Below, in pieces: positions 40,428 to 62,700 of a stretch of 64,000 bases of DNA. The stretch's first letter is position 1. Each line of letters opens with the position of its first letter. The notes under the pieces were generated by a model. It was not told the origin of the DNA, did no database searches, and worked only from the letters and a program-made list of their open reading frames with translations. Made by a program: the position numbers and the translations under genes. Location of the stretch: contig MU130354.1 of assembly GCA_015039465.1 (NCBI GenBank), positions 167,848-231,847 of the forward strand, in the 5' to 3' direction. This DNA is from Phlegmacium glaucopus. Its lineage: Eukaryota > Basidiomycota > Agaricomycetes > Agaricales > Cortinariaceae.

Positions 40428-41660
40428 GCTAGGAACAATGACCAATGGGCTTGTCTCTGGTTGAGCTTTTTGGCTGTCATGAAAAATTCCAAGTTCTTGT
40501 GATCAGTCCAGATCTCGCACTTGTGTTCTGCTCCTTCAAAGAAGTGTCTGCACTCTTCTAGGGCTCAGATGATCACTAGCATCTCTTTGTTGTGGATCTC
40601 ATAGTTCCGTTTGACCAGAGATAAGGATTTAGACAGGAATGCAACTGGGTGCCATTTCTCATCATCGAGGGACTGTTGGGAGAGTACGGCTCCGGTTGCA
40701 AAATTGGAACTGTCTGCTTCGATGCGGAATGGCCTGGAGTTGTCTGGAGAGGCTAGAATCAGGGTTGAAGTGATCAGGTTCTTGAGAGAATCAAACGCCA
40801 ACTGCTCTTCTGTATTCCATCTCCATTTAATGTCACTTTTGGTGAGATCAAACAAGGGACGGGCATGATGAGAAAAGTCTTGGATGAACCTTTGGTAAAA
40901 GTTGGTAAAGCCTAGAAATGACTGGACTTCCTTTTTGTTCATTGGAATTGGCCATTCCGCTACTCCAGCAACTTTTACAGGGTCCATCTCGACAGAGTTA
41001 TGAGATATTATGACTCCAAGGTATTCCACCTTGGTTTGTTTGAATTTGCACTTGTCCAGTTTTAGGAAGAGTTTATGCTTCCATAAAAGTTCCAGTACTC
41101 TCCGAGTTACGGACCTGTGTTCCTATAGTGTCTCTGTGAATATCAGGATATTGTCAAGGTAGACTACTACAACCCCTTGCATTATGAGTTTGCGGAAGAT
41201 GTCATTCATCATTGTTTGGAAAGTAGTCGGACTGTTGGTGAGGCCAAAGAACATAACCAGGGGTTCAAATAATCCCCAGTTGGTTCGGAAAGCCACTTTC
41301 CATTCATCCCCTTCCTTCATTCGGACATTGTTAAAACCCCATCGGACGTCCAGCTTAGTGAAATATTTAGCGCCCCGGAGTTGGGTAATCAGTTCCAAAA
41401 TGAGGGGAAGTGGGTACTTGTTTTTAATGGTGATCGCGTTGAGAGCTCGATAGTCCTGAACAAGCTGAAGACTTCTGTCTTTCTTTTTGATAAAGAAAAC
41501 CGGAGATGCCATCAGAGATTTGGAAGGTCGGATGCATCTGGAGTTTAAATTCTCCTGGAGGAACGTGTCGAGTTCCTTTTGTTCTGTCGGAGCTAGAGGA
41601 TAGACCTTGCATCCTGATGGTTTTTCTCCCGGAATAAGTTCTACTGCGTGGTCCCAAGGT
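40428..41660 (-). pseudogene. Gypsy reverse transcriptase and RNase H
   Basis: In order: ASPVFFIKKKDRSLQLVQDY with RALN, the catalytic D in FTKLDVRWGFNNVRMKEGDE, the FGLTNSPTTFQ motif and VVVYLDNILIFTETL, where the usual Y-x-D-D has become Y-L-D-N. Next come LEYLGVIIS-type text, SFLGFTNFYQRFIQDFSHHA (connection) and RNase H (FRIEADSSNFATGAVLSQ, NYEIHNKEMLVII, TDHKNLEFFMTAKKLN). Stops and frame changes (for example after LIFTETL at about 41123) break the polyprotein. It copies genomic RNA to cDNA in active elements; the D-to-N change probably disables it. Confidence 0.88.
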
Positions 41661-42273
41661 TTCGGATCAGGTAGGATATCAAAAGATTCTTTGGTGAAAA
41701 CACTATCAAATTCTCGGAGATAATCTGGAACTCCTTCTTTTGTTTTGGATTGTGTGTTGTGCTGGAATGCTTCTGCAAGACATTGGGAGATGGTGGAGGT
41801 GGCTCAGATATCTGCCTGTGGTGGTAGTAGGCTTGTGGCGAATATTCTGTCGCCATCCTCAAATTCAGGGTTTGGGCTACTTTCCTCCTCATCATCCTCA
41901 TCACAATCCTCTACATGAGCTGGAAGTGGGCCGGTCAAACATTTTTCAATTCGGTGTATTTCCACCTTTTGAATTTTTCATTCTTCTCAGATTTCATTCC
42001 TGCATTCTGAACAACAATGGGGTGGACAATGGGACATTTTTACTTCTCCGGTTGCCCAGTTGATCTCCGGGTTGTGCATCTTAAGCCAGGAATGTCTGAG
42101 AATCAAGGTTTGTTTTCCTAGTCCAGTGACTGCAAACAAGGATCTCTTGGAATGTCCTTTGTACCTGAGTATCACATCAACCACTTCTGTAATCAATCCA
42201 GCTTTGTTTGGAGTACCGTCAACATTAAATACTGGAATTGGATTTGACAGGGACTTTGTTGTGAGCCTGTTAG
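41661..42273 (-). pseudogene. Gypsy protease C-terminal part and linker
   Basis: 42266-41990 reads RLTTKSLSNPIPVFNVDGTP then EVVDVILRYKGHSKRSLFAV and LILRHSWLKMHNPEINWATG, which are the flap and end of the aspartic protease of fungal Gypsy elements. The active-site half is at 46788-46990, on the other side of the 4.5-kb DNA transposon. The linker at 41904-41641 is acidic and proline-rich. Confidence 0.85.
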
Positions 42274-42491
42274 TGGGGGTGACCACCTCCTGTTATGGTT
42301 GCGGGAGCGTCACGTCACGTCACACAGCCAAAAGCGTGACAAACTGTGAAACACATGAATCTTTTGTTGCTCACTCAGTTTTGCATGCTTTACCTTGATT
42401 CTTTTTAGTGTAAAAAAGTGTTAAAATATATTAGAAGCTTTAAAACCATAATTTATTGTCCAAATAACTAAGTTAAAGTGACATAAACTAC

Positions 42492-45400
42492 CTAATCATC
42501 ATCACATGACTCCCATGCATCTATATCCTCATTTCCTTCTTCTGGGAAGTCAAATTCCTCCCCAGACTCTGAAATATCATCTGTCTCTTTAAGGGGATTC
42601 CATTTCCCATCATTGTAGAGATCTACTGCATCTCTCAAGGCCTGCCTAATCTCTTCAACTTTAGCACCACTCTGCTTGAAATTCTGCAAGTTTGGTGCTC
42701 CAGCACTGTGAAAAGCCTTTAAGTGATCTTTGAGGGCTTTTCCTTTAAGTGCAGTAACTCTGTCTTTGTCCAAGATTAGATTGATTCCAGCCAATCAAAG
42801 TTTAGTTTCTTCAACTGTTTGCTGCTTCTTTGCTTTTTTAGCCAATTTATTTACTCGGGTAGCCTCTCTGTGGTCAACCAACTCTTTCTTTCTCTGCTTC
42901 TCCTCTCCTTGAGACTCTCGTGCCATTTTATGCAGAAATGCATAATCTTCCTTCTCTGTAAACATTTTTGCCATAAATGCTTCAGTATCATTCCGGAAGA
43001 ACATAGCAAGTGCATTATGCTGAAGTAGTGTCAGTTGAGGTTGTTTGCGCATTAGAACACGGAATGACCCAAGAGCACCTTCATCCACATTATTAGTGGC
43101 TGGCATCCAAGCCAGCTTCTTTTCCTCTACAGTTGCTTCATCAATTAAGCCACCAGGAGCAAATTCAGAAGTAAATCATTTCTATGTTTCTGCAGCACCC
43201 TTAAAGAAAGTGACAAGTAGTGGTTTCAGATATGGTAGTTCTGGTTCCATTTTATTGATAGCCTTGATTACATCTGGGTAATGCCACTCCTCTCCATCAA
43301 GTGATCCCATCTCAAATGATGCAGTTGGTCCAATAAGAAAAGTTGGATCTCCAATTATACGCTGCATATGAGAATAGACCTTTTTGTGGAAAGGACCAAG
43401 GTCAAGCATATTCTGCTTATTTTTGCCAGATGCACAAATTACCTTCATATATGGATGGGAAATTGCTTGGGAATATAATGCCATGACAGCAAGTTCAGTC
43501 TTTGTAGCACTGCAGTGAAGAGCATTCCACAAGTTTTGTTCCATGTGGTTGAATTTAGAACTTTGCTTGTTGTCATGAAGGCTTGTTAGGAATTCAATAA
43601 AGCAGGGAAGATGAAGTAGCAGAACCGCTGCAGCATCACAATGTGATTGAAATCAGGTGTTGGAGGTGTCAGGAAATGTAAATTGTGTTCCAATGTTCTC
43701 ATACCACCACCACCAAAATGTATCATGGTGCCCTTTTTTGTCATCTTTGTGGTTAAAAATTGCACCAGCCAGCTGTGTTGCCTTGACTCCACCTCTTGAA
43801 GTCATTTCAAAAGCTCGCTGGTTGTGCTGATGTAGCCACATTGTCAGAATCAGACCCTAGCTCTTTGAGAACAGCAGCATTATCTCGGTTTGCAAGAAGA
43901 ATAGGAGGTTCAATTTTGTTCTCAGACCACCATTTTATAACAGCAGCATACCCTCCCCGCACAGTGTTGAGATCCTTGTGGCATCCACAACCAGCCCAGA
44001 TAAATAGTTTGAGAATTCTCTTTTCATCATCAGAAAGCATGTCAAATGCTTCTCTTCCTAGCTCAATAACCAGCTTCTCCATTGCCACAGCCTGTTTTTC
44101 TGCTTGCTCCTCCTCCGATAGTGCCTTCCATTTTTCCTTTCCTCCTGCTGCCTTGATCATTGCTTTTTCAGATTGTTGAAAATATGGAAGTAGCTCCTCT
44201 TCAGTTTTATCCAACATTACTTTTTCACCAAGAACTTGATTTGTAGCCTCCTCTTTTTTCTTTTCCATTAGCTGAGCATCTTTCTTCTCCTTTGCACAGT
44301 GATCAGAGTGCATCCCTGCCAGCTTGATAAGGATATCCACAATTCGAAGAAGATTTCCATTTCTCTTTCCAAAAGGACTTCTGTTGTAGAGCTCAACAAT
44401 AGCTTTTAAAGTCTTTTCCCAGTCCTTGATAGACTCCTTGCTACTGCCATCAAGTGATGACTGGATTCCAAGGAAGCAGGTAACATGCTGTTGCTCAGCT
44501 TTTTCTCCAGTACCAGAATAGTCCTCTGCAATGAGGTTGACATGCCTGGAATTATAGTTGATACTGCGATGACCTGTTCCATCTGCACTGAATGTCATGC
44601 CCTCAGCATTCTGCATCTCATATCCAAGCTGGATCTGGGCTGCAAAGAAACCCTCCCTCATAATCCGTGCAATTGTGGTTCTGCTGACACTTCCAACTGT
44701 TTTAATTCCAGCTGACTTCAGCACTGCAACAATGACTTTGTTGACATATTGTTGGGAGCATCCTGCCTTAACTAGAAGTCGCACTAAATTGCGAGTATCT
44801 TCTGTATAGACACCCTTGTGCATCAGCTTATGAAAGTTTGTCTCCTTGATAAGCTTCTCTCGTGCAGCCCAGACAGCATGGTTTTGCCATGCATCAGCCC
44901 GATGACGTGCCTTTTTAAGCCATGTAATTTCTCTAACAGACTGTTTAAGCATTTCACGTGCTTGGTGAAACTTCTCCTGTGTTGCATGAAGTCTACCCTC
45001 CCAGAGTGACAAGCACTGTGATAATTCACTTTGCAAGGATTGATTTTCACCTTGAAGTGCTTTTATGGCCAATGAAGGATTTTTGGCCTCCTGCAAGCCT
45101 GAAATCTCTGCTGATTTCAATAGGTCAATCTGCTGCTCCAAAAGAGTTCACCTATCAACACCACATTTCTGGGCTTGACGTTCTATGTGTAACTCATGGT
45201 AGACAGCCTTATATTTCTCTTTTTGAGATTTAAGCTGAGAAAGTAAGCTAGTAACACTTTCTTCGGAGCGTCTCAAATCTGTTGACAATAATGCAACATG
45301 TCTCTCCTTCTCAACCAGAGAAATTTCCAAATCCTGCACAGTTTTTCAACTGTCAAGAAGCTCTTGGTTCAACTCAAGCAAAACTTTTTGGAGAGAAGCC

Positions 45401-45501
45401 ATAGTTTGTGCCTCAGTCTGCTTTTCTCTAGCAGTAGCAAGCTGAGCCTTCTTAGCTTGTGCAGCTGCAGTAGGACGTGGCATCAGAAATCTTTGATCCA
45501 T
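42492..45501 (-). pseudogene. Putative transposase, ~1,000-residue coiled-coil protein (broken)
   Basis: The only gene of the 4.5-kb transposon. From ATG 45501 (or 45483): basic start (MPRPTAAAQAKKAQ), a long coiled coil (about residues 20-180; ELNQELLDS, EISLVEKERHVALL, LLKSAEISGLQEAK), then a well-kept region: NLVRLLVKAGCSQQYVNKVI, SVSRTTIARIM, MTFSADGTGHRSINYNSRHV, HVTCFLGIQSSLDGSS, LFIWAGCGCHKDLNTVRGGY, ILLANRDNAAVL. The C-terminal part has EGALGSFRVLMRKQPQLTLL and an acidic end (WESCDDD). The SADGT strand followed by alternating hydrophobics, plus NRDNA, suggests an RNase H-like DDE core, but that is inference. Stops (near 45350, 45146, 43667, 43181, 42794) and a frameshift (about 43806) inactivate it. 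I recall similar proteins as multicopy hypothetical families in agarics. Confidence 0.72.
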
Positions 45502-46085
45502 CAAAATTGATCTGAGATATAAATAGAATTGATAAAAAAAAGTGTCACAAACCTTTTGATCTATCAAAATTGATCTGAGATATAAATAAAATAGATGAAA
45601 AAATCATCACAAACCTTGGTTTACAGAATACAGAAGTGGGTAACAGATGTATTTTGGGGTGAGGAAAGGAGAATCTTTGATCCATCAAAATTGATTTGAG
45701 ATATAAATAAAATTGATCAAAAAAGCGTCACAAACCTTGGTTTACTGGATACAAAAAAATTGATCTGAGATATAAATAAAATTGATGAAAAAAGCATCAC
45801 AAACCTTGACTGAATACAGAAGGAATCTTTGATCTATCAAAATTGATCTGAGATATAAATAAAATTGATGAAAAAGCATCACAAACCTTGTTTACTGAAC
45901 ACAGAAGGAATCTTTGACCTATAAAATTTGATTTGAGATATAAAATTGATGAAAAAGCATCACAAACCTTGGTTTACTAAATACAGAAGTGGATAATGGA
46001 TGTGTTTCGAGAGGGGGGAGAATATTTGGTCCATCAAATTGATCTGAGATATAAATAGAATTGATGAAAAGCGTCACAAACCTTG
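45490..46085. repeat. Seven-copy degenerate repeat inside the 4.5-kb transposon
   Basis: The core AAATTGATCTGAGATATAAATA recurs at about 45505, 45568, 45688, 45759, 45840, 45924 and 46035 (two copies have GATTTGAG), each followed by AATTGATGAAAAA...CATCACAAACCTTG. Spacing varies from about 63 to 121 bp. The tract lies between the transposase start and the right terminus, and the start codon falls at the edge of the first unit, so it is also the promoter region. Subterminal arrays like this often bind transposase; that role is inference. Confidence 0.85.
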
Positions 46086-46787
46086 GTTTACAGAGTACAG
46101 AAGTATTTATTTTGGGGGCAGAAGTGAATAAAGGGATGTGGTGATGGAGTTTTGGCTCAGATATATGGTGGTTTAAGAGGAAAGGAGATTGAGCCATGAA
46201 GCAAAGGTGCATGCAGCAGCATGTTCATTTTTGGGGTGGCTGTGCCCACCTAAAAAGGGCAGAAAGAATTCCGGCTCTTATAACATCCCACCAATGCACT
46301 TTCGCAACTAGTTTTGGTGACAAGATATATGTATTTTTTGATTCTGAACACACCTATCAGCTCAGAATTTTTAATTTCACACTGTAAGTATGAGATAATG
46401 ATGCATATCCCTTGAAATGGTGACCTTAATGGACAAATTTAAAAATTATAACCTGATAGAAATGTTCAGAATAACATTTAGAATAATTTGTTCCAGCAAA
46501 ACAAGTTGCAGATTTGAGGTGCTGGAGAGTTATAAAGGATAGACATCTCAGCACTCAGATTTAGCAGGGGAATCATCATTATGGCCACAAAAAAGTATAT
46601 TGATTGCATTCTACTTGCAGTTTCTCATTCTAACTACTCTTTATGTACTATTTTCAACTTAAAAATCTCCTGTTAAGTGTTGTGTAAGGAACAAGAGCCA
46701 TGTCTCAATATTTCATCTGTGACACTGCTGTGATGCATGTGTGACATAGGGTCACGTCACTCAAGCATTGGTCACCCCCACTGTTAG

Positions 46788-47095
46788 TCTTGACATAGTC
46801 TCTGTCAATAAACCTTCCGTCGGCTCCAGAGTCTATTAAGGACAGAAAGGAGTTTACTTCTCTGGTATCAGTCGTCTCAATGCTGACTTTGAGTTCCAGT
46901 GATTTAGAGTCAGCATCGAGGGAGCCAATAGTGAACTTTTTTGGGAGGGTTCTTTCCCATCGGGGTTGGAACACTCAGATTTTTTTTGGAATTTCTGATG
47001 TTTGTACGACTTGAATGCTTTCAACTGTCTTGTTTATTTCATCAATGCTATCTACATGTAAAACAGAGAACTGGTTGGTCGTTGACAGCAAGGGC
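46788..47095 (-). pseudogene. Gypsy protease active-site half
   Basis: Reads FQPRWERTLPKKFTIGSL, a beta-rich stretch, then SLIDSGADGRFIDRDYVK, containing the D-S-G-A active site of retroviral-type aspartic proteases. Upstream text (NKTVESIQVVQTSEIPKK, then a TGA at about 46979) joins toward gag. The frame is cut after the VKTN codons by the 4.5-kb transposon. Confidence 0.85.
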
Positions 47096-59707: not shown

Positions 59708-62700
59708 GCGTGCTCAATAAAACCCGACCAACTGCTGATACCGAGGAATTCTTCAAGCCAGTTGCTCTCTTGGAAAGGCCTGTTAAGGGTGATAAGAAGA
59801 AGCGGGTGAAATGTATACCATGCATGTATGTTCTTCATCCCTTTTTTTTCAAGATGTTAACTCACATATGATATTTATCCCGAAGTAATGGCCTTGGTGG
59901 CTGTCCAAAGAAAGAACACATGTTAGTTGGTGATGTTACCACTCTCCGACGACATATGGCAGCCGTTCACAAGGTAAGATTCCATATTCCTTACATATTA
60001 TCAACTCTAACTGCATTCCAGGGCCTGTATCGCAAATGGGCAAAGCTCAATAACTTCAAATCAATGCTTCCGGAGGATGCAAAAGCCCGTTGTGCACAAG
60101 TACTCGAGGAACATTTTCAGCAAACCAATGTAAATGATCACTTCAAACCCGCACCTAAAGAAGAGAAACCAGAACCATATTCCAATCAACTCTTCAAGCA
60201 GGCTGCTATAGAATGGTTGATTGAAACAAATCAGGTAATGTAACTGCGCATATATTTTTAATATTAGACTCATTTTTTGTTGGTAATGTAGCCAATTCAA
60301 GCATTCGACCACCCCGCATTCCAGAAGATGGTCAACACTGCTGCTCGTGCGACATGAGGTATCAAGCTGCCATCTTGGAAGCAGATGTGAAACGAAATCA
60401 TTCACATGTTTAAGGAACAGATGAAAGCTCCGAAGGAACGGCTTAATGTAAGTTCTTTATTAATCTCATCATCATATTATCTCTTACTGCTTCACTTCAG
60501 AGCAAGGCTGTCAGCGGTGAAGTTAGTCTCACCTGTGATGCATGGCAGGCATCCAATGCCGATGCGTACTTTGCTGTCACCGGTCATTGGATTGAAGAGG
60601 AACAACCTGGGGAGTGGGTTGAACAGGAAGCACTTTTGGGCTTCACTCAGATGAACACTGCTCACAACGGAGTTCGGCTGGGCCAAGCGTTATACCAAAT
60701 ATGCAACCGACTGGGCATAGTTCACAAGGTTTGCTCAAATCATATGAAATGAAGCTCGCTAACATTTAATGCGTTAGATTGGGCATATCACATGCGATAA
60801 TGCAAGTAACAATAACACAATGTTAGATGAATTTGCAAGGTGCTTTCACATGAAGACTGGAAAAAAGTTCAATGTTTCTAAGTGCCACATTCGGTGAGAA
60901 CTTATATCTATTCTTTCCCTATTCTCTCTCTATTCTCACAGTTGTGAGAACACAGATGTCTCGCCCATATAATAAACCTCGCAACACAAGCTCTGATTTC
61001 AACTCGAAGCAAGGCGAAATTCTACTCTGCCGATGCCGAAGATGCACCTTTACCTGAGACTGCAGGTGCTGAGCGTGACGAGCTTGGGCTTATTCGAGCA
61101 ATATGTGTCAAGGTAACTGCATTTTTTGGATTTTTTGCACCAACTGACCTTGAATTAGGCACGATCATCATCGCAACGCAAGCAACTATTCAGAGAGCTA
61201 CAAGAACAGAAGCATGAGAAGCCACTGCAATTACTCATTGATATGAAAGTCCGTTGGGGGTCAACACTTGCGATGCTGAATAGAGCAGATATTAAGCAAG
61301 AAGTAAGTCACTATCTACTCTCATTTGTGCTCCCAGCTACTAATGGTTTATGCAGTTCATCGATGAATTTGTATTTGAGCTTAGAAGGAAGGAGACGAAC
61401 ACTGAGAAGCGCCGGAAACTTGGTGACTTGGCCCTCACAGAGGAGGAATGGGACCGGGTTAGATTATTTTGTAATCTTCTCCAGGTATTATTTTTTTTAT
61501 CAAGTAGATGCTCATTTCTCACCTCTTCCCTCACCTTAGCATGCCGACAATGCTCAGCAGGCATTTTTGGCAGGAACACGACCGACTCTTCACAATGCCC
61601 TTCCCGCGATCGAAAAAATGTACAGTGCTTGGCAGAAGGCGGAAGATAAGCCATGCTACAGTGTTTTCAAGCCTGCGCTTGAAGCAGCTATGGCCAAGTT
61701 AGATGAATACTACCAGAGGACTGCTGCGTCAGATGCACATATCATTGCTATGGGTAATTTTTGCTTTTTGTTCGTGTTACAGAGTATTTTACTGAATAAA
61801 GGCCTAGTTCTCGACCCAAGAAAGAAGTTTGAACATTTCACTAGGAATTGGGATGAGGATCTTCAAACTGACGTCAAGGATATGGTTCAGAAAAAGGTGT
61901 GTGCACCTGTTACAACATTTCTGTTTCATGTTAATGATAGCATTTAAGTTTATTGAGCGGTATGAGTCCCTTAATCAAACAACAAACTTCGAGCGTCCCT
62001 CCCAGTCAAAAAGGACCTTAGCCACCACTGGAAAACAACCCCGTCAGAATGTGGATGATACCGACTCAGAGGAAGGTCACAATGGGGAGGTCCATGATGC
62101 AGAAAGGCCTTGGTTCGCTGAGTGGAATCGCTATGAGAAAACACACGAGGCAATTCCAGATGGCATGGGGATTGTCCGCTGGTGGGGGGTATGTCCATAC
62201 ATCATCTAATCATTTTCCCGCTTCAATACTGACATGTTCGCCTTTGTAAGATGAATGCATATCAGTATCCAACTTGGGCATCCCTTGCTCGAGATTACCT
62301 TGCCATTATGGCATCATCTGTCTCTAGTGAGCGTGCGTTTTCGGCTGCAGGAATTACGATAAGCAAGCGCCGTAATCGACTTCAAGGAGATATTGTTGAA
62401 GCCCTTGAGTGCCTCAAGTGCCTCATTCATCGTGACATTTTATTTCGTGAGGTTCTCAACATGGAACAGGTGGAGAAGGACTTGGAAGATCTTGTCATTG
62501 ATGAAGAGGTTGGTCAATCTGCTGATGCAGTATTACAGGGTGATAGATTTAGTTGGGATAGTATTCTCGTTGACGAGGTGGACTCAGCACCTGAGGTAGA
62601 TACCATAGAAATTATAGATTAGCAACATAGATTCTTCTAAATTACACAGGACCTATTCTGAACCTAGAAGCTGTGGCTCGAGCCCAAGCCAGGCCCGAGC

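Follow-up and report, generated by a model that had tools for sequence, protein, structure and literature searches.

The window analysed here is a stretch of 64,000 nucleotides from Phlegmacium glaucopus (order Agaricales; genome 60.5 Mb), corresponding to positions 167,848 to 231,847 of contig MU130354.1 (assembly GCA_015039465.1, forward strand). It contains a DNA transposon of 4,507 bp, inserted into a Gypsy retrotransposon and carrying a degenerate copy of a large gene, for which a role as transposase is predicted below. The element is a real, well-bounded transposon and belongs to a multicopy, unnamed family of agarics. Its boundaries and surroundings are as follows:

41123-42273, minus strand: host Gypsy retrotransposon downstream of the insertion, with the continued protease frame and the reverse transcriptase
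42267-42273: target-site duplication, left copy, CTGTTAG
42274-46780: transposon, 4,507 bp
42274-42285, plus strand: left terminal inverted repeat, TGGGGGTGACCA
46769-46780, minus strand: right terminal inverted repeat, TGGGGGTGACCA
46781-46787: target-site duplication, right copy, CTGTTAG
46788-46974, minus strand: host Gypsy retrotransposon, upstream portion of the protease frame that the insertion breaks

Boundaries and insertion site

The inverted termini of the element are 12 bp long and perfect. Within the window, TGGGGGTGACCA was matched at no more than one mismatch only twice, at the two ends of the element, where 0.32 matches were expected; two or more matches were obtained in 5 of 100 shuffled controls. 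Genome-wide, 16 + 16 occurrences were found, compared with 1 + 2 for a control with reversed letters. When the flanks were joined with a single CTGTTAG, the reading frame became continuous across the insertion site. Termini, duplication and reconstructed empty site had all been claimed in a preliminary description of this DNA and were found where it had placed them. The interrupted frame had been described there as a Gypsy protease, and the joined protein indeed matched Pfam RVP_2 (retroviral aspartyl protease; E 8.1e-4), slightly sub-threshold with 19.6 bits against a cut-off of 20.3 bits; a reverse transcriptase (Pfam RVT_1, E 3.1e-21) adjoins it.

Coding region of the window copy

One gene could be assigned to the element:

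42492-45501, minus strand: transposase pseudogene with in-frame stops and a frame change

This span had been given correctly in the preliminary description as that of a single gene, but the window copy does not encode an intact protein: in-frame stops and a frame change split the coding span into several open stretches, and the gene of the window copy is therefore a pseudogene. NCBI record BYT27DRAFT_7221984 (713 aa) is its gene-model product. The relative L065 showed a single open frame of 999 codons from stop to stop, or 983 residues from the ATG. The observed/expected ratio of CpG was 0.20 in the transposon, compared with 0.58 over the whole window. A sister copy, L061, was 98.8% identical to the window element and had its own duplication; 22 of the 49 substitutions between the two were located at CpG sites of one copy. 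Such CpG poverty and CpG-site substitutions would be expected if methylated repeats decay.

A multicopy protein family

With the central 446 residues of the protein, at least 81 matches were obtained in the P. glaucopus genome (87 candidates, all scored; genome match counts of this kind are lower bounds). Two protein searches were evaluated by the best 120 of 233 and the best 120 of 252 matches. Among them, entries labelled "hypothetical protein" or "glutamic acid-rich protein" came from Laccaria, Coprinellus, Coprinopsis, Galerina, Pholiota, Gymnopilus and Candolleomyces; most of the listed matches carried no name at all, and none had a functional name. All fungal genera named among the listed matches are agarics. 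Many of the listed relatives were 975-1,010 residues long. The preliminary description had mentioned similar proteins forming large, unannotated multicopy families in agarics, which agrees with the genome matches and the unnamed relatives in other agarics; single-copy homologues, which would have spoken against its reading, were looked for and not found in the libraries searched. A scan of IMG/VR with the family alignment gave no relative. One listed match, P0065, was labelled as a bacterial metagenome bin and is probably misbinned fungal DNA.

Termini and duplications of further coding copies

Seventeen coding copies were checked for their ends (the window copy, six in one set and ten in another). 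Inverted termini of the same pattern together with an exact 7-bp duplication were present in seven:

Window copy: CTGTTAG
L061: TTTTAAG
L063: TTACTAG
L066: GTTATTG
L016: TTCCAAA
L019: ATAATAG
L012: CTTCCAG

L016 and L019 had their own perfect 11-bp termini, TGGGGGTCGGC and TGGGGATGAAC. The pair of L066 was the least regular (TGGTGGTGCAC and TGGAGATGAAC), and the left terminus of L012 showed a one-base length difference. The remaining ten copies yielded no terminus pair with a duplication:

L062: left end only retained
L065: none on the upstream side of the gene, where the contig begins
L064, L006, L014, L018: one end each
L010: both ends present, flanks unlike
L008, L013: at most a right-end-like stretch
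L011: no usable end; contains N

The direct repeat of 9 bp that flanks L012 was rejected as a target duplication, as it belongs to a stretch duplicated at an offset of 3.73 kb; L012, L093 and L094 (G000:C164:486556-493248) lie in this direct repetition, which mimics a 9-bp duplication.

Protein identities over the searched region (15 copies) resulted in six groups:

window copy, L061
L063
L066
L006, L019, L011
L010, L012, L014, L016, L018
L065, L008, L013

Identity between groups was 40-64%, and 42-64% among the five groups with duplications; no duplication was found in the group of L065, L008 and L013. The terminal letters varied by protein group, as expected of a transposase and its own sites. 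The flank test of homologues proposed in the preliminary description had thus turned up divergent coding copies with related termini and 7-bp duplications.

Short copies, target sites and subterminal words

Thirty of the 32 genomic occurrences of TGGGGGTGACCA were taken as loci. A partner about 1.54 kb away was tested at 18 places, where an exact 7-bp duplication was present in 11 and not in the other seven. Two further short copies with a 7-bp duplication were found among the 30 loci, L038 (1,163 bp) and L048/L049 (1,538 bp). The terminus was present in L047, with three of seven flank bases differing, and L053, L054 and L056 may lie outside the 1.54-kb short family. The ends of L031/L067 align with those of the window element beyond the 12-mer, and two more short copies look alike. 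Most simply, the short copies, whose likeness is known from their ends alone, would be internally deleted relatives. The 7-bp target-site size given in the preliminary description recurs in the coding copies (7/17), the short-copy places (11/18) and these two loci. Terminal inverted repeats and a fixed duplication at independent insertions are the marks of a cut-and-paste DDE (Asp-Asp-Glu) transposon.

Target sites were compared in 20 copies picked for their exact 7-bp repeats (20/20 by construction); a control with swapped flanks among these copies gave a match in 2 of 380. A T was found at position 2 in 17 and an A at position 6 in 18 of the 20, a palindromic preference. Short words were concentrated near both ends of the window element:

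42274-42423: left subterminal zone, five GTCAC/GTGAC words in 150 bp
46631-46780: right subterminal zone, five GTCAC/GTGAC words in 150 bp

The outer 300 bp thus hold 10 such words, compared with 8 in the inner 4,207 bp, and they are likely to be binding sites of the transposase.

Many of the 1.54-kb copies (L031, L032, L034, L045, L048, L057 and others) carried, some 1.2 kb inside one end, an extra terminus-like word, and L049 and L054 had common sequence beside the inner terminus-like word; nested or composite short elements are possible. In L053 and L059 the 12-mer was followed by AAGAGCCTTTCAGTTGGACC, unlike the ends of this transposon, and may be there by chance or belong to another repeat family.

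Predicted fold and catalytic residues

Two predicted models showed an RNase H-like core (roughly residues 300-870 in a relative of 990 residues) with a Hermes-like helical insertion and C-x-x-H. The best structural match of both was Hermes, a hAT transposase of the housefly, to which the resemblance in shape is distant. The residues predicted to form the catalytic set are SADGT (D), HSDHC/TDHC (D), CGCH (C-x-x-H) and DENEGALG (E), located in the window copy as follows:

44581-44583, minus strand: predicted catalytic Asp 1 (SADGT); D in 69/70 aligned relatives
44302-44304, minus strand: predicted catalytic Asp 2 (HSDHC); D in 68/69 aligned relatives with a residue there
43978-43989, minus strand: C-x-x-H motif (CGCH), start of the helical insertion; C in 68/68 and H in 67/67 with a residue there
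43080-43082, minus strand: predicted catalytic Glu (VDEGALG in the window copy); E in 70/70 aligned relatives

Models and column conservation together point to the three acidic residues of an RNase H transposase. This is the fold and residue pattern for which the preliminary description had suggested looking, seen in both models with the residues placed without residue-by-residue superposition. Of its conserved blocks, the one containing CGCH falls within the predicted catalytic set, whereas NRDNA is conserved but lies outside it. The reading as a transposase gains support from the fold models, the near-invariant catalytic columns, and the termini and duplications of divergent copies. The predicted fold is itself a known one, closest to that of Hermes.

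Comparison with known superfamilies

Pfam searches with the window pieces and L065 revealed no hAT or KDZ domain, and no other transposase domain among the matches listed. With 40 relatives, the best 25 of 50 families were coiled-coil models and weak chance matches, without a transposase family; provided that the ranking holds, all further ones should score worse than E 0.12. NCBIfam gave two weak matches only, far below the cut-offs, for three proteins. The PDB was searched by single sequence, yielding weak chance matches to viral haemagglutinin, by the full profile, yielding mostly coiled coils among the best 60 of 138, and by a core profile (29-member core alignment; E up to 10), yielding no transposase and one chance match. 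Both a profile match to a known superfamily and a captured non-transposase protein, named in the preliminary description as outcomes against its reading, were looked for and not found in the libraries searched.

The comparison with hAT was made with an alignment of 44 fungal members (out of 71 matches), seeded with a hAT gene of the window itself. This fungal hAT transposase gene lies at 59872-62622 on the plus strand in several exons or pieces; its frame at 62233-62622 contains a Pfam hAT dimerisation domain (E 1.2e-14), and its relatives are annotated as AC transposase in other agarics. As a positive control, the 44-member profile found Hermes at E 5e-21. Profile-profile comparison of the family core with it gave E 0.26, whereas the reversed control reached 0.063 and the best among 10 shuffles 0.039. 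With a second alignment, a probability of 6% and E 0.006 were obtained over 40 columns, pairing the C-x-x-H region with the hAT first-Asp region; low effective sequence numbers (Neff) limit these profile-profile comparisons. The genome contained 116 matches to the hAT dimerisation domain and 76 to KDZ, none of which, compared by eye, shared any of the 81 family places. Membership in hAT was not detectable by sequence, while the predicted fold is of hAT type.

The family might nevertheless be a very divergent branch of hAT, related for example to the hAT7 group of rust fungi. Hermes (PDB 6dwz, 4d1q, 2bw3) was the top structural match of both models, and its RNase H core, helical insertion and C-x-x-H are common to the predicted models of the family. 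The duplication in hAT is usually 8 bp (sometimes 5-7 bp), but the hAT7 families of rusts, likewise fungal DNA transposons, give 7-bp duplications (Kojima 2025, PMC12730594). The same text places hAT7 within hAT by transposase sequence, clustering with fungal hATs and plant Ac/Tam3, unlike the agaric family: its window pieces, L065 and the best Pfam families of the 40 relatives contained no hAT domain, its comparison with fungal hATs was no better than the reversed and shuffled controls, its core profile found no transposase where that of hAT found Hermes, and its genomic places were separate from those of hAT. It further differs in its long N-terminal coiled coil, in having no BED finger among the best matches, and in its TGGGG termini. 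A hAT origin of this kind is conceivable but on balance unlikely.

It is also rather improbable that the family belongs to a named superfamily poorly represented in the tools used (Kyakuja/KDZ, P, Dada, Kolobok, MULE) or already has a Repbase entry. KDZ elements are likewise abundant in the P. glaucopus genome and Kyakuja likewise has 7-bp duplications, but its ends are described as CA..TG without inverted repeats (PMC12730594), in contrast to the perfect inverted TGGGG termini found here; the KDZ domain PF18758 was absent from the window pieces, L065 and the best 25 of 50 families for the 40 relatives, and the KDZ places shared none with the family. Dada, known from Laccaria, has a DDE transposase with DxxH and 6-7 bp duplications; in PMC3706591 it is characterised by zinc fingers, strict targeting of small RNA genes and a lack of terminal inverted repeats, with an extra exonuclease domain between the second D and DxxH in Laccaria members. 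The window element, by contrast, has 12-bp perfect inverted termini and sits in a Gypsy element, and Rfam gave no matches in 16 insertion loci of the family. For P element and Galileo, no P or THAP match was present among the best Pfam matches and the fold match was far below that of Hermes. The IS256/MULE group (ISCth4, PDB 6xgx) showed a smaller insertion and a weaker fold match, and no sequence match to it was found. A Laccaria survey of transposable elements (PMC3411680) lists 23 families with terminal inverted repeats, and the word "transposase" does not occur in its accessible part. No paper describing the agaric family was found in a literature search of mainly open-access papers, and the family may already have been catalogued in Repbase or Dfam.

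Capture of a host coiled-coil gene by a non-autonomous transposon moved by an unrelated transposase would fit the plain coiled coil of the N-terminal part and the pseudogene in the window, but is highly improbable given the divergent protein subfamilies each lying between related termini with 7-bp duplications, the near-invariant predicted catalytic columns and the core predicted as an RNase H transposase.

Proposed mechanism and rank

Observed termini, duplications, multiplicity and residue conservation, together with a predicted fold and active site, indicate with high confidence a family of cut-and-paste DNA transposons in Agaricales, of autonomous type and with no recognised superfamily, which encodes a predicted Hermes-like DDE transposase. 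The enzyme, of about 980-1,000 residues, would consist of four parts: an N-terminal coiled coil, probably for oligomerisation; a small, mostly helical segment, probably for DNA binding; the RNase H-like core (D, D, E), interrupted by a large insertion that is entirely helical and begins with C-x-x-H; and a helical C-terminal portion. hAT-type enzymes excise through hairpins on flanking DNA. By analogy, the transposase would recognise the TGGGG-type termini and subterminal GTCAC words and cut out the element, possibly by hairpin excision. Its ends would then be joined to target strands staggered by 7 bp, preferably at N-T-N-N-N-A-N, thereby creating the 7-bp duplications. The short copies share these ends and are probably mobilised in trans.

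The family is a new lineage of a known kind, for which superfamily rank is plausible. Somewhat more tentatively, but still as the probable reading, we regard it as an undescribed DDE lineage of that rank which has multiplied in Agaricales, hidden as "hypothetical" or "glutamic acid-rich" proteins. It would combine a Hermes-like body lacking detectable sequence similarity to hAT with a long N-terminal coiled coil in place of the BED finger. An additional block of helices would lie between the second Asp and C-x-x-H, the TGGGG termini would be accompanied by subterminal GTCAC words, and the 7-bp targets would follow N-T-N-N-N-A-N. Unannotated proteins that have multiplied in mushrooms could then be tested as a transposase family whose ends and duplication size are known. 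Annotators could leave such proteins out when counting genes or analysing expanded families, recent insertions in agaric genomes could be traced with the element as a probe, and the branch of DDE transposases with C/DxxH and a helical insertion (hAT, P, MULE, Kolobok, Dada) would be extended by one lineage.

Further observations

One additional repeat region was located in the window element:

45480-45989: imperfect direct repeats with units of 63-85 bp, surrounding the gene start and extending upstream of it

The region was also self-similar in the sister copy L061, and promoter or binding-site repeats are possible. L062 (G000:C241:43300-49000) was 99% identical to the window element over the left 2.85 kb; its gene continues, in one open frame, into a match to the Gypsy frame next to the window copy, suggesting recombination or a deletion between adjacent elements. 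A 90-residue family match at G000:C224:118953-119222 was located inside an open frame of 6,446 codons, which may reflect a gap or a long repeat.
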